A stretch of DNA of 64,000 bases from Paraburkholderia sp. ZP32-5 (GTDB lineage: Bacteria > Pseudomonadota > Gammaproteobacteria > Burkholderiales > Burkholderiaceae). Location of the stretch: the NCBI RefSeq assembly GCF_021390495.1, contig NZ_JAJEJP010000001.1, positions 558,001 through 622,000 on the forward strand, in the 5' to 3' direction. Below are positions 26,778 to 30,629 of the stretch, in pieces (positions within the stretch are counted from its first letter, which is position 1; every line of letters begins with the position of its first letter). The position numbers and the translations under genes were made by a program. A model generated the notes under the pieces. It searched no databases. It saw nothing but the letters and a program-made list of their open reading frames with translations, and was not told the DNA's origin.

Positions 26778-27110
26778 TTAGCCAATGGCAAGCGTCACCG
26801 GTTTGCCAATGCGGCTCATCATTTCGACGAGTGTGTCGATCGTGAACTTGGTGGTTTTCTTGTTGACGACGTCGGACACGCGCGGGCGCGACACCATCAG
26901 AATTTCCGCGGCTTCGGCCTGCTTCAGATGATGCTGTTCGATCCAGCTGGACAGCTCGCTCATCAGTTGTTCCTTCAGCAGCCGGGTGTCGTTGATCTGC
27001 TTTTGCGACGCGGCATGCAGGCGTTTTGCTTCTTCGGCGGAGAAGCCGAGTTCAAGAAACAGATTGCTGCCGGGTTTGCTTACGTGACGGATTTTGGTGT
27101 CGATCGTCAT
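26778..27110 (-). CDS. XRE-family antitoxin of a type II toxin-antitoxin pair
   Basis: This 110-residue protein has a C-terminal helix-turn-helix: SWIEQHHLKQAEAAEILMVSRPRVSDVVNKKTTKF at about residues 55-89. This is the HigA2-like/COG5606 arrangement used by antitoxins partnered with Gp49-like toxins. The N-terminal half would neutralise the toxin. It starts 1 bp after the toxin stop (TGA-C-ATG), so translation is coupled, with the toxin gene first, as in higBA systems. It probably represses the shared promoter. Confidence 0.85.
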   Translation of the reverse strand: MTIDTKIRHVSKPGSNLFLELGFSAEEAKRLHAASQKQINDTRLLKEQLMSELSSWIEQHHLKQAEAAEILMVSRPRVSDVVNKKTTKFTIDTLVEMMSRIGKPVTLAIG

Positions 27111-27111
27111 G

Positions 27112-27450
27112 TCAGGTTTTCCTCTCGTTAATGATTGCGCGGTAACGGGTTACGGCGATCTTTCTGTCTTGCACGCTGAGCTTCTGTGTTTTCTTCTGAA
27201 AACAATGCAGCACGTAAAGCGCTTCGACGTATTTGGTCACGTACATCACGCGAAAAATGCCGTTTTCTTCCCGGATGCGAATTTCGCGAGTTCCCGCGCC
27301 GATCGAGTCGAACGGCTTCCAGTCGTCGGGGTCGAGCCCTGCCTGAATCTTGTGGAGCTGAAACCCCGCGAGACGACGTGCTTCATCGGGAAAGGCGAGC
27401 AAATCGCAATAGCTGGAGCCTAGCCAGCGAATTTCTTTTTCCTGCTCCAT
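27112..27450 (-). CDS. Gp49-like/HigB-type toxin of a toxin-antitoxin pair
   Basis: This 112-residue protein belongs to the RelE/HigB-related Gp49-like group, usually ribosome-dependent mRNA interferases. Visible features: EIRWLGSSYCDLLAFP at the start, GTREIRIREENGIFRVMYVTKY in the middle (beta-sheet core), and ALYVLHCFQKKTQKLSVQDRKIA, the typical FxKKxxKxxxxD pattern. The frame is open upstream to a GTG/ATG near 27507. However, the predicted promoter (27470-27498) would start transcription inside that stretch, so I choose the ATG at 27448-27450, preceded by AAGGCGG. Confidence 0.85.
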   Translation of the reverse strand: MEQEKEIRWLGSSYCDLLAFPDEARRLAGFQLHKIQAGLDPDDWKPFDSIGAGTREIRIREENGIFRVMYVTKYVEALYVLHCFQKKTQKLSVQDRKIAVTRYRAIINERKT

Positions 27451-27462
27451 AGCCGCCTTGAT

Positions 27463-27498
27463 GTATAAAATCTTATACGTTTCACCCATCCCGGTCAA
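27463..27498 (-). promoter_or_regulatory. Promoter and operator of the toxin-antitoxin operon
   Basis: On the minus strand TTGACC (27493-27498) and TAAGAT (27470-27475) are exactly 17 bp apart. GTATAA (27463-27468) and TTATAC (27473-27478) are inverted arms over the -10, a good candidate for antitoxin binding. The implied transcription start (about 27463) supports the toxin start at 27450. Confidence 0.6.
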
Positions 27499-27573
27499 GT
27501 CATCCACGACCGGGCAACGAGCTGTTACGGTACAGAGGCAGGGCGCGGAGCACCATTCGTCCGAATGGCCAAT

Positions 27574-28888: not shown

Positions 28889-28974
28889 AAAAAAAACCGC
28901 CAGTCTGAGCTGGCGGTTTTTCGGGAATTCTTGGTGTCCTGCGTGCACTAACACCCCTCTCGATCCGCCAGCGG
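28889..28974 (-). promoter_or_regulatory. Attenuator: alternative antiterminator and terminator before aroG
   Basis: On the minus strand, CCGCCAGC (28909-28916) and the 3' arm CTGGCGG (28897-28903) form a terminator stem extended by AA/TT, followed by eight U residues (28889-28896). GCTGGCGG at 28965-28972, inside the leader ORF just after its aromatic codons, is a perfect 8-nt complement of the terminator 5' arm and would form an antiterminator. An inner GGTGT (28951-28955) / ACACC (28933-28937) pairing would support it. Confidence 0.82.
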
Positions 28975-29016
28975 TCTGAGATACCAAAAAAAGTAAAAGT
29001 AAAACTTGGCGGACAT
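28948..29016 (-). CDS. Aromatic-amino-acid leader peptide of aroG (22 aa)
   Basis: ATG at 29014-29016 opens 22 codons ending TAG at 28948-28950. After MSAK come eight aromatic codons in a row, FYFYFFWY (28981-29004), then LRPLADREGC. Such codon runs are the hallmark of ribosome-mediated attenuation, as in the pheA and trp leaders of enterobacteria. Here Phe (4), Tyr (3) and Trp (1) codons are mixed, matching the role of DAHP synthase as the common first step. The codons lie 12 nt before an antiterminator strand, so a ribosome stalled on them would leave that strand free. No strong Shine-Dalgarno is visible. Confidence 0.85.
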   Translation of the reverse strand: MSAKFYFYFFWYLRPLADREGC

Positions 29017-29058
29017 GGCGAAATGAAATGTGTCGCTGGTCAAAAAGGGTGGTTGACT

Positions 29059-29087
29059 TTATAACCCGGTACGGGCTCGGCTGACAA
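29059..29087 (-). promoter_or_regulatory. aroG promoter
   Basis: On the minus strand TTGTCA (29082-29087) and TTATAA (29059-29064) are exactly 17 bp apart, each close to the sigma-70 consensus. Transcription would begin near 29052, about 36 bp before the leader-peptide ATG. It lies just downstream of the tldD terminator, so aroG appears independently transcribed. Confidence 0.75.
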
Positions 29088-29162: not shown

Positions 29163-30629
29163 TCAGGCCGTACCGCCCACGGTCATGCGCTCGATGCGCA
29201 GCGTCGGCTGACCGACGCCCACCGGCACGCTCTGACCTTCCTTGCCGCACACGCCGACGCCCGAATCGAGCTTCATGTCGTTGCCGATCATCGTGATGTA
29301 CTTCAGCGATTCCGGGCCGCTGCCGATCAGCGTTGCACCCTTGACCGGATACGTGATCTTGCCGTTCTCGATCATGTATGCCTCGGACGCCGAGAACACG
29401 AACTTGCCGTTCGTGATGTCGACCTGGCCGCCGCCGAAATTCACCGCATACAGGCCGTTCTTTACGGACGCGAGAATTTCCTGCGGATCCTTGTCGCCGT
29501 TGAGCATGTACGTATTGGTCATGCGCGGCATCGGCAGCGCCGCGTACGATTCGCGCCGCGCGTTGCCGGTGACCGGCATCTTCATCAGACGCGCGTTCAG
29601 CGTGTCCTGGATATAGCCCTTCAGGATGCCGTCCTCGATCAGCGTCGTGCACTGCGTCGGATTGCCTTCGTCGTCGATGTTCAACGAGCCGCGGCGGTTC
29701 GGCAGCGTGCCGTCGTCGACCACGGTGACGCCCTTCGCGGCGACCTGCTCGCCGATGCGTCCCGCGAACGCCGACGAACCCTTGCGGTTGAAGTCGCCTT
29801 CGAGGCCGTGACCGATCGCTTCGTGCAGCAGCACGCCGGGCCAGCCCGGGCCGAGCACGACAGTCATCGCGCCGGCCGGCGCCGGACGCGCGTCGAGATT
29901 GACGAGCGCCGCGTGTACCGCGTCGTCGACGTAGCGCGACAGCACTTCGTCGGTGAAATAGCCGTAGTCGAAGCGGCCGCCGCCACCGCCGCTGCCGATC
30001 TCGCGACGGCCGTTCTGCTCGGCGATCACCGTGACCGACACGCGCACGAGCGGCCGGATGTCGGCCGCGAAGCCGCCGTCGCTGCGCGCGACCAGCACCA
30101 CGTCGTATTCGCCGGCGAGGCCCGCCATCACCTGCTGGATGCGCGGGTCGCGGCCGCGCGCCATCTTCTCGATGCGTTCGAGCAGCTTGACCTTGGCGGT
30201 CGCGTCCAGCGAATGCAGCGGATCGGACGGCAGGTACAGATCGCGCCCGGCGATACCGGTCAGCGACGAGGCCGCCTTGATCTTCTGCTTGCCGCCGCCT
30301 GCCTTGGCAATCGAACGGGTGGCGAGCGCCGCCTGACGAATTGCTTCTGGCGACAGATCGTCCGAGTACGCGAAAGCCGTGCGGTCGCCCGACACGGCGC
30401 GCACGCCGACGCCCTGGTCGATACTGAAGCTGCCCGATTTCACGATACCTTCTTCGAGACTCCACGCTTCGCTGCGCGTGTACTGGAAGTACAGATCCGC
30501 GTAATCGATGCGGTGCGTGAAGATTTCGGCGAGCGTGCGCGTGAGCAGCGACTCGTCCAGACCGTAGGGCGTGAGGAGGATGTCCTTGGCGGCGGCGAGA
30601 TTACGGATACCGGGTTCGATGATGTTCAT
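29163..30629 (-). CDS. tldD: Metalloprotease TldD
   Basis: This 488-residue protein is the metal-bearing subunit of the TldD/TldE (PmbA) protease, which trims unfolded peptides and matures some modified peptides. The zinc-site motif LLHEAIGHGLEGDFNRKGSS (HExxxH, about residues 258-263) is intact. Other family features: YFQYTRSEAWSLEEGIVKSG near the N-terminus and GVCGKEGQSVPVGVGQPTLR near the C-terminus. TldE is not in the window. It is the last gene of yhdP-nitrilase-tldD, a conserved proteobacterial order. Confidence 0.97.
   Translation of the reverse strand: MNIIEPGIRNLAAAKDILLTPYGLDESLLTRTLAEIFTHRIDYADLYFQYTRSEAWSLEEGIVKSGSFSIDQGVGVRAVSGDRTAFAYSDDLSPEAIRQAALATRSIAKAGGGKQKIKAASSLTGIAGRDLYLPSDPLHSLDATAKVKLLERIEKMARGRDPRIQQVMAGLAGEYDVVLVARSDGGFAADIRPLVRVSVTVIAEQNGRREIGSGGGGGRFDYGYFTDEVLSRYVDDAVHAALVNLDARPAPAGAMTVVLGPGWPGVLLHEAIGHGLEGDFNRKGSSAFAGRIGEQVAAKGVTVVDDGTLPNRRGSLNIDDEGNPTQCTTLIEDGILKGYIQDTLNARLMKMPVTGNARRESYAALPMPRMTNTYMLNGDKDPQEILASVKNGLYAVNFGGGQVDITNGKFVFSASEAYMIENGKITYPVKGATLIGSGPESLKYITMIGNDMKLDSGVGVCGKEGQSVPVGVGQPTLRIERMTVGGTA

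Follow-up and report, generated by a model that had tools for sequence, protein, structure and literature searches.

A conserved candidate attenuator with a mixed aromatic codon run upstream of aroG in Paraburkholderia and other proteobacteria

The aroG locus and its leader

Flow towards the three aromatic amino acids is controlled by DAHP synthase. In the window, by which the whole analysed stretch of 64,000 nucleotides is meant, a class I DAHP synthase is encoded by aroG, and its product matches PF00793 with 322.4 bits and the NCBIfam AroG equivalog NF006723 with 594.4 bits (cut-off 568). The gene and the parts of its leader are listed below in window coordinates.

29163-30629: tldD, upstream of the aroG leader (profile matches)
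29087-29082, minus strand: -35 hexamer TTGTCA, read in the sequence
29064-29059, minus strand: -10 hexamer TTATAA, spacer of 17 nt, read in the sequence
about 29051, minus strand: predicted transcription start, from the promoter position, with a predicted 5' UTR of 35 nt
29016-28948, minus strand: leader ORF MSAKFYFYFFWYLRPLADREGC plus stop, 22 codons, ATG at 29016 and stop TAG at 28950-28948, a conserved ORF
29013-29007, minus strand: R1 UCCGCCA, putative protector arm in the ORF, codons 2-4, from its pairing with R2
29004-28981, minus strand: putative control codons FYFYFFWY, codons 5-12, from the sequence and the comparison of leaders
28972-28965, minus strand: R2 GCUGGCGG (DNA GCTGGCGG), putative antiterminator 5' arm inside the ORF, from pairing and covariation
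28922-28891, minus strand: stem of the intrinsic terminator, whose 3' arm runs into U8
28916-28909, minus strand: R3 CCGCCAGC, shared by the antiterminator (3' arm) and the terminator (5' arm), from pairing and covariation
28903-28897, minus strand: R4 CUGGCGG, terminator 3' arm, from pairing and covariation
28896-28889, minus strand: U8 tract TTTTTTTT of the intrinsic terminator
28736-28731, minus strand: aroG Shine-Dalgarno sequence AGGAGA, read in the sequence
28725-27652, minus strand: aroG, class I DAHP synthase of 357 amino acids (PF00793 and NCBIfam profile matches)

Directly behind aroG, the minus strand carries a gene pair at 26778-27507, one gene for a Gp49-like protein (PF05973, 81 bits) and one for an HTH protein (PF13744, 56.8 bits), which we take to resemble a toxin-antitoxin module of the HigBA type.

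A preliminary description of this DNA had reported a promoter TTGTCA-N17-TTATAA before aroG, a 22-codon ORF with the run FYFYFFWY and, behind it, a perfect complement of the 5' arm of a terminator that ends in eight U residues. All three are present, the promoter at 29087-29059 (minus strand) and the others at the positions listed. The intrinsic terminator lies between the leader ORF and the structural gene aroG, and the terminated RNA is predicted to be about 163 nt long. R3 sits within the terminator 5' arm and R2 is complementary to it at 8/8 bases; since R2:R3, which covaries, uses the same R3 as the terminator, it forms a mutually exclusive antiterminator. A fourth pairing element, absent from the preliminary description, was found in R1, which pairs with R2 (UGGCGGA) across 7-8 bases. 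With R1:R2 found besides R2:R3 and R3:R4, the set 1:2, 2:3 and 3:4 is therefore complete in the window. The minimum free energy fold of the leader (-51.2 kcal/mol) contains both the R1:R2 hairpin and the terminator, and its energy has a z of -3.35, with 0/200 shuffles as low.

Among window ORFs of 8-60 codons, the aroG leader ORF (with two in-frame starts) is the only one with at least 6 aromatic codons in 8. A TTG at 29043 was rejected as its start, being in frame in the window and out of frame in the related locus L005. No Rfam family reached its gathering score on either strand of the 64-kb window, and a riboswitch or T-box was rejected on this ground. The Rfam Phe_leader family (RF01859) gave 18.6 bits against the aroG leader and did not reach its cut-off of 55.

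Occurrence and conservation of the leader

A set of 81 aroG loci, made up of the window locus and the best 80 among at least 590 relatives in genome contigs, was scanned for an ORF in which at least 4, or at least 5, codons in 8 are aromatic and behind which lies an intrinsic terminator with an unbroken stem. At the lower threshold such a leader lies upstream of 51/81 aroG genes, and the controls gave 0/81 for reverse complements, 1/810 for dinucleotide shuffles (ten rounds over the 81 loci) and 1/514 for other pieces from the same loci and the window. At the higher threshold it lies upstream of 49/81, and the same controls gave 0/81, 0/810 and 0/514. A chance origin was rejected from these near-zero controls, the sole ORF with at least 6 in 8 in the window and the single significant full-length match in the genome described below. 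Loci L032, L033, L038 and L049 have aromatic ORFs and no terminator that passed, because the scan needs an unbroken stem.

The 30/81 loci without a detected leader comprise 8 from Enterobacterales or Vibrionaceae (L055, L060, L061, L071, L072, L074, L077, L081), 5 of Rhodocyclales type (L037, L040, L041, L043, L073), 3 from Methylotenera, 2 from Ferrovum and 12 others, which include L015 (a Burkholderia symbiont), Chitinimonas and unplaced bins. In L015 (Candidatus Burkholderia humilis, 1240-1503) the run lacks Trp, the frame differs behind it, and the ORF lacks the usual stop and continues into the terminator hairpin, with R2, R3 and R4 retained; this leader is perhaps decaying in the symbiont. 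L049, from a bin labelled Anaerolineae (Chloroflexota), has a proteobacterial-type aroG with the aromatic ORF MSRYFSFFSWYGYFAAGQVERAVVRPRDV upstream, perhaps by a binning error or transfer. The leader MAAKLYFYFFANLKLAEGDGC is retained at L114 in a genome of the same family of about 1.2 Mb (G010), and thus survives strong genome reduction.

A covariance model was built from the 51 leaders with a terminator stem. In this genome it gave one significant full-length match, with 112.6 bits and E 1e-22, at the aroG leader. The runner-up (29.9 bits) is confined to model positions 98-136, and another low match (17.5 bits, E 1.29) spans the whole model. Matches with E above 3e-5 cover mainly the terminator and were left out of the counts for two samples, which overlap. 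In the order, full-length matches occur in 48/200 genomes (E<=2.9e-5), and 46/48 precede a same-strand aroG homologue; for the weakest two, in G174 and G247, there is no such aroG in the stretch examined. In the phylum they occur in 53/398 genomes (E<=1.2e-5), with 48/53 upstream of aroG. The other phylum matches are weak (E 1e-6 to 1e-5) and consist of four leaders MNAAIFRFFFYFS(T/A) before a PheT-like ORF and one pheA-type leader, presumably pheM and pheL, known kinds of Phe attenuator. Fourteen weaker matches were inspected, and downstream of them were aroG in 7, a PheT-like ORF in 4 and a pheA-type ORF in 2; in 1/14 the strand read showed no leader and no long ORF. A DNA pattern search hit 20/60 genomes of the family and 0/60 with the reversed pattern, and 10/10 loci examined carry aroG.

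In the related genomes G174 and G247 (L187 and L188, minus strand, about 230-360 counted from that strand's start), a leader-like ORF ending YFYWYRSS is accompanied by a GGCGG arm and a GCCGCC terminator, and is followed by an ORF beginning MNEVSDA. This is perhaps the same device on another gene. On the strand of the second DAHP synthase gene of the Paraburkholderia genome (L002) no aromatic leader ORF was found, and the two remaining PF00793 matches in the genome are judged to be KdsA-like by sequence and neighbours.

On an AroG tree of the 81 loci, which is quick, unrooted and has several long branches, the leader label needs 8 changes against 24.4 on shuffled labels, and 48/51 leader genes fall into one group of 54 rows (SH-aLRT 96). 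This fits one putative old origin of the leader, with losses. It has also been considered that the terminator just ends the tldD transcript or trims aroG expression, with the ORF incidental, as tldD lies upstream both in the window and at 18/50 related leader loci. However, tldD is absent from the flank (at most 1500 bases) at 32/50 leader loci and present at 7/30 with no detected leader, so the element follows aroG and not tldD. In addition, the predicted promoter sits between tldD and the terminator, and neither the conserved run nor its spacing to R2 is expected of an incidental ORF. A tldD terminator was rejected because tldD presence does not track the leader, and this explanation is considered extremely improbable.

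In a MAFFT alignment of the 51 leaders, which were chosen for having a terminator, R2 and R3 form standard pairs in 79.0% of cells, versus 22-55% when slid by 1-3 columns. R2:R3 cells changed on both sides number 19, versus a mean of 6.8 in a shuffle control that ignores relatedness (0/500 as high); the numbers of R2:R3 pairs with a double change (4 vs 3.2) and of further pair types (12 vs 10.1) were not unusual against the shuffles. R3:R4 is paired in 95.0% of cells, a share that is partly built in because the terminator was required for the 51, and its both-side changes number 20 versus 5.2 in shuffles (0/500 as high). The preliminary description had proposed an alignment of orthologues for the run and covarying stems as a check. 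The run, R2:R3 and R3:R4 proved to be conserved, and the contrary outcome that it had named for orthologous leaders, a missing run or pairing, did not appear.

Further comparisons used 116 leaders, 106 of them distinct, with peptides picked by aromatic density; the starts assigned to L014, L025, L028 and L153 are probably too far upstream. The leader groups named here (Burkholderiaceae-type and so on) are peptide-pattern groups and not taxonomy. R1 was assessed against dinucleotide shuffles of the segment 5' of R2 in 104 of the 106 distinct leaders, and p<=0.05 was reached in 33/104 (window p 0.025). These are 18/21 Burkholderiaceae-type, 9/20 Bradyrhizobium-type, 2/12 Xanthomonadales-like and 1/17 Oxalobacteraceae-type leaders and 3/34 others. 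Two of the last three are Burkholderiaceae leaders missed by the group pattern, and the Burkholderiaceae leaders L006 and L014 were counted among the others. R1 was no better than shuffles in Oxalobacteraceae-type leaders (mean z 0.03) or in the others (mean z -0.04). A universal R1:R2 was rejected, as it was found in 33/104 leaders only, mostly in two groups. The predicted R1 is thus lineage-specific, belonging mainly to Burkholderiaceae- and Bradyrhizobium-type leaders, and in several lineages masking of R2 by the ribosome may be the whole control device. In the Oxalobacteraceae loci L019 and L020 the run is interrupted by Thr-Ala codons (ACCGCC/ACCGCT) that are complementary to R2 (GGCGGT). 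In some Oxalobacteraceae leaders R1 may lie inside the aromatic run; of these two loci, only L019 reached p<=0.05 in the shuffle test.

An SD-like 4-mer precedes the leader ATG in 2/51 leaders versus 66/490 background pieces, and in 4/104 of a wider set; a Shine-Dalgarno sequence precedes aroG in 46/51, by a looser and wider test than for the leader. The window leader ORF has no Shine-Dalgarno motif, which was counted against attenuation. In Burkholderiaceae-type leaders the best -10-like hexamer lies 34-39 nt 5' of the ATG in 20/23, and the hexamer may be shifted by 2-3 nt. Its end is 4, 5 or 7 nt from the ATG in 12/20 Bradyrhizobium-type leaders and 7 or 8 nt from it in 6/12 Xanthomonadales-like ones. 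With the hexamer so near the ATG, leaderless starts are implied in many leaders of these two groups.

Ribosome stalling and the amino acids sensed

The comparison of leaders and the folding model described below indicate that the leader is very probably a ribosome-mediated transcription attenuator of aroG. This reading had been put forward in the preliminary description, and it gains support from the conserved run, the covarying arms, the narrow spacing and the linkage to aroG found here among related sequences. We infer that the leader is translated, that the ribosome stalls under starvation and that termination is then relieved. In the proposed sequence of events, a ribosome would translate the 22-codon leader behind RNA polymerase. 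If tRNA-Phe and tRNA-Tyr (and tRNA-Trp in this species) are amply charged, it would pass the run and cover R2; alternatively, it would leave and R1 would pair with R2. With R2 engaged, R3:R4 would form and transcription would stop at U8, yielding the short RNA of some 163 nt. Lack of charge on an aromatic tRNA would instead halt the ribosome in the run, where it would cover or cut off R1. R2, left free, would pair with R3 ahead of the synthesis of R4, and RNA polymerase would read on into aroG.

The spacing of the parts was measured with the R2 core defined as the first GGCGG, GGTGG or GGCAG behind the aromatic run. Measured from base 1 of the last aromatic codon, the distance to this core is 14 nt in 59/106 leaders and 10-20 nt in 104/106. 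The effect of a stalled ribosome was modelled with a footprint of 29 nt on an RNA ending 4 nt past R3, and the codon in the A site was varied. Variant 1 lets R1:R2 form around the ribosome; variant 2 allows no pairing 5' of it. With no ribosome the predicted probability is 0.05 for R2:R3 and 0.78 for R1:R2. With the A site at codons 5-9, that of R2:R3 becomes 0.91, 1.00, 1.00, 1.00 and 0.99. At codons 10, 11, 12 and 13 it is 0.53, 0.23, 0.00 and 0.00 in variant 1 and 1.00, 1.00, 0.73 and 0.25 in variant 2, and both variants give 0.00 throughout codons 14-22. By this profile, the run would end about where stalling stops helping. Several results of the model were counted against attenuation, the disagreement of the variants at codons 10-12 among them. 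Codons 3 and 4, ahead of the run, would also free R2 (0.90 and 0.91 for R2:R3), and for a ribosome waiting at the stop codon R2:R3 is 0.74 in variant 1 and 0.00 in variant 2. A further such result is that R3:R4 prevails (1.00) in all modelled states that include R4. Antitermination would have to be kinetic, as in classical cases, because the terminator wins at equilibrium once R4 is made. It is in the footprint model, together with the narrow spacing, that a stall in the run frees R2 and passage of the ribosome covers it.

The codons of the run are not equally conserved. Of 22 distinct Burkholderiaceae-type leaders, for which the M.AK start was the sole criterion, 20 have Phe at codon 5 and 2 have Leu. 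Codons 6-10 show synonymous changes only (TAC/TAT, TTT/TTC). Trp stands at codon 11 in 16 leaders, and the other 6 have Ala, Gly or Ser there; at codon 12, 12 leaders have His, 8 Tyr, 1 Asp and 1 Asn. The 106 distinct leaders contain Phe, Tyr and Trp in 71 cases, Phe and Tyr only in 33, Phe and Trp in 1 and Phe only in 1. The mixed sensor for all three products proposed in the preliminary description therefore stands in part: as judged from the run, Phe and Tyr are the constant inputs, whereas Trp, present in 72/106 leaders, is common but optional. At the 51 loci, TTT accounts for 78% of Phe codons in the leaders and for 17% of those in aroG itself, and this preference may reflect slower decoding or a run kept unstructured.

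Whether Trp contributes in the window species is evenly balanced in our assessment. A reading to which nearly as much weight can be given is that Phe and Tyr are sensed in practice and that the Trp codon and the last Tyr codon add little or nothing here. It would agree with the constancy of codons 6-10 as Tyr or Phe in the 22 leaders, where codons 11 and 12 depart from Trp and Tyr as described above, and with the Oxalobacteraceae-type leaders, of which 15/18 have Phe and Tyr only and 3/18 all three. Variant 1 of the model, in which antitermination is predicted to be weak at codons 11-12, points the same way, but in variant 2 codon 11 would be fully effective. All three aromatic amino acids are also encoded in most of the distinct leaders, including 20/20 Bradyrhizobium-type and 11/12 Xanthomonadales-like ones, in which Trp lies mostly mid-run.

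Comparison with known systems

The aroG leader resembles several known attenuators without being identical to any of them. The Phe attenuators pheL-pheA and pheM-pheST of gammaproteobacteria likewise have a short Phe/Tyr-rich ORF followed by an intrinsic terminator, but they have other target genes, and the aroG leader has a mixed Phe/Tyr/Trp run. The leaders of ilvGMEDA and thrABC are textbook multi-amino-acid leaders. Like the Caulobacter leader mentioned next, they serve several end products of a branched pathway per leader, although in these cases the products are branched-chain amino acids or Thr/Ile and in the aroG leader they are aromatic. The remark in the preliminary description that most classical leaders respond to a single amino acid is thus only partly true, a further multi-input case being the Ile/Val leader described for Caulobacter (sections considered of PMC4117421).

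The E. coli DAHP synthase genes are known mainly for repression by TyrR/TrpR and for feedback inhibition. Attenuation of E. coli aroF was once hypothesised (Camakaris 1980, as cited in the sections considered of PMC8632094). The same sections describe the uORFC-13-1 motif before aroF of Acholeplasma, in which a predicted uORF with one or more Phe codons adjoins a terminator (PMC8632094). It belongs to the same enzyme step as the aroG leader, compared by description only, but is reported there only from Acholeplasma and environmental sequences, with no mixed aromatic run described. Putative attenuators of tyrA operons are tabulated from a prediction site in PMC1173090, in the examined parts of which no Burkholderiales aroG is found. 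The words 'DAHP', 'aromatic' and 'heptulosonate' do not occur in the main text of PMC2965389, as far as it was available. No aroG leader of this type was found in the literature searched, that is, titles and the openings of abstracts; the attenuator survey of Vitreschak 2004 (FEMS Microbiol Lett) lies outside that search.

The trpL-trpE(G) attenuator of S. meliloti is also proteobacterial and, according to the sections considered of PMC7298713 and PMC10117765, has a small terminated RNA and a leaderless leader ORF. It differs in its Trp codons and its gene, and the window leader has a predicted 5' UTR of 35 nt. Trans roles have been reported for this attenuator (PMC7298713, in part), and the terminated aroG RNA or its peptide could similarly act mainly in trans, like rnTrpL/peTrpL. 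The -10-like hexamers within 8 nt of the ATG in many Bradyrhizobium- and Xanthomonadales-type leaders, as in S. meliloti, would be in keeping with this. However, cis pairing accounts for the conservation, the peptide behind the run varies by lineage, and R2 is retained in differing reading frames, so a main role in trans is regarded as highly improbable. A broader proposal, which we consider possible but rather doubtful, is that the leaders form one ancestral RNA family inherited with an AroG clade of Burkholderiales, Xanthomonadales and Hyphomicrobiales. Its SD-less, often leaderless ORF would sum the charging of tRNA-Phe, tRNA-Tyr and tRNA-Trp, with weights set by codon order, at the pathway's committed step, and the terminated RNA or peptide would perhaps also act in trans.

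With attenuation in cis as the preferred reading, the aroG leader represents a real and conserved attenuator family at the committed aromatic step, one that is apparently uncatalogued. The mechanism is ordinary; what is notable is the target, the mixed codon set, the breadth and the SD-less start. As judged by sequence comparison, the mechanism is a textbook one in a new family, and the same candidate device is found before aroG in many other proteobacteria. Codon order varies naturally, with Trp last, mid-run or absent, so that a multi-input attenuator can be tested directly, and the leader is a possible control point for metabolic engineers. A sensor of tRNA charging at the DAHP step, if true, would explain how the pathway is managed in many proteobacteria, and the lineages concerned include nitrogen-fixing symbionts and plant-associated bacteria.
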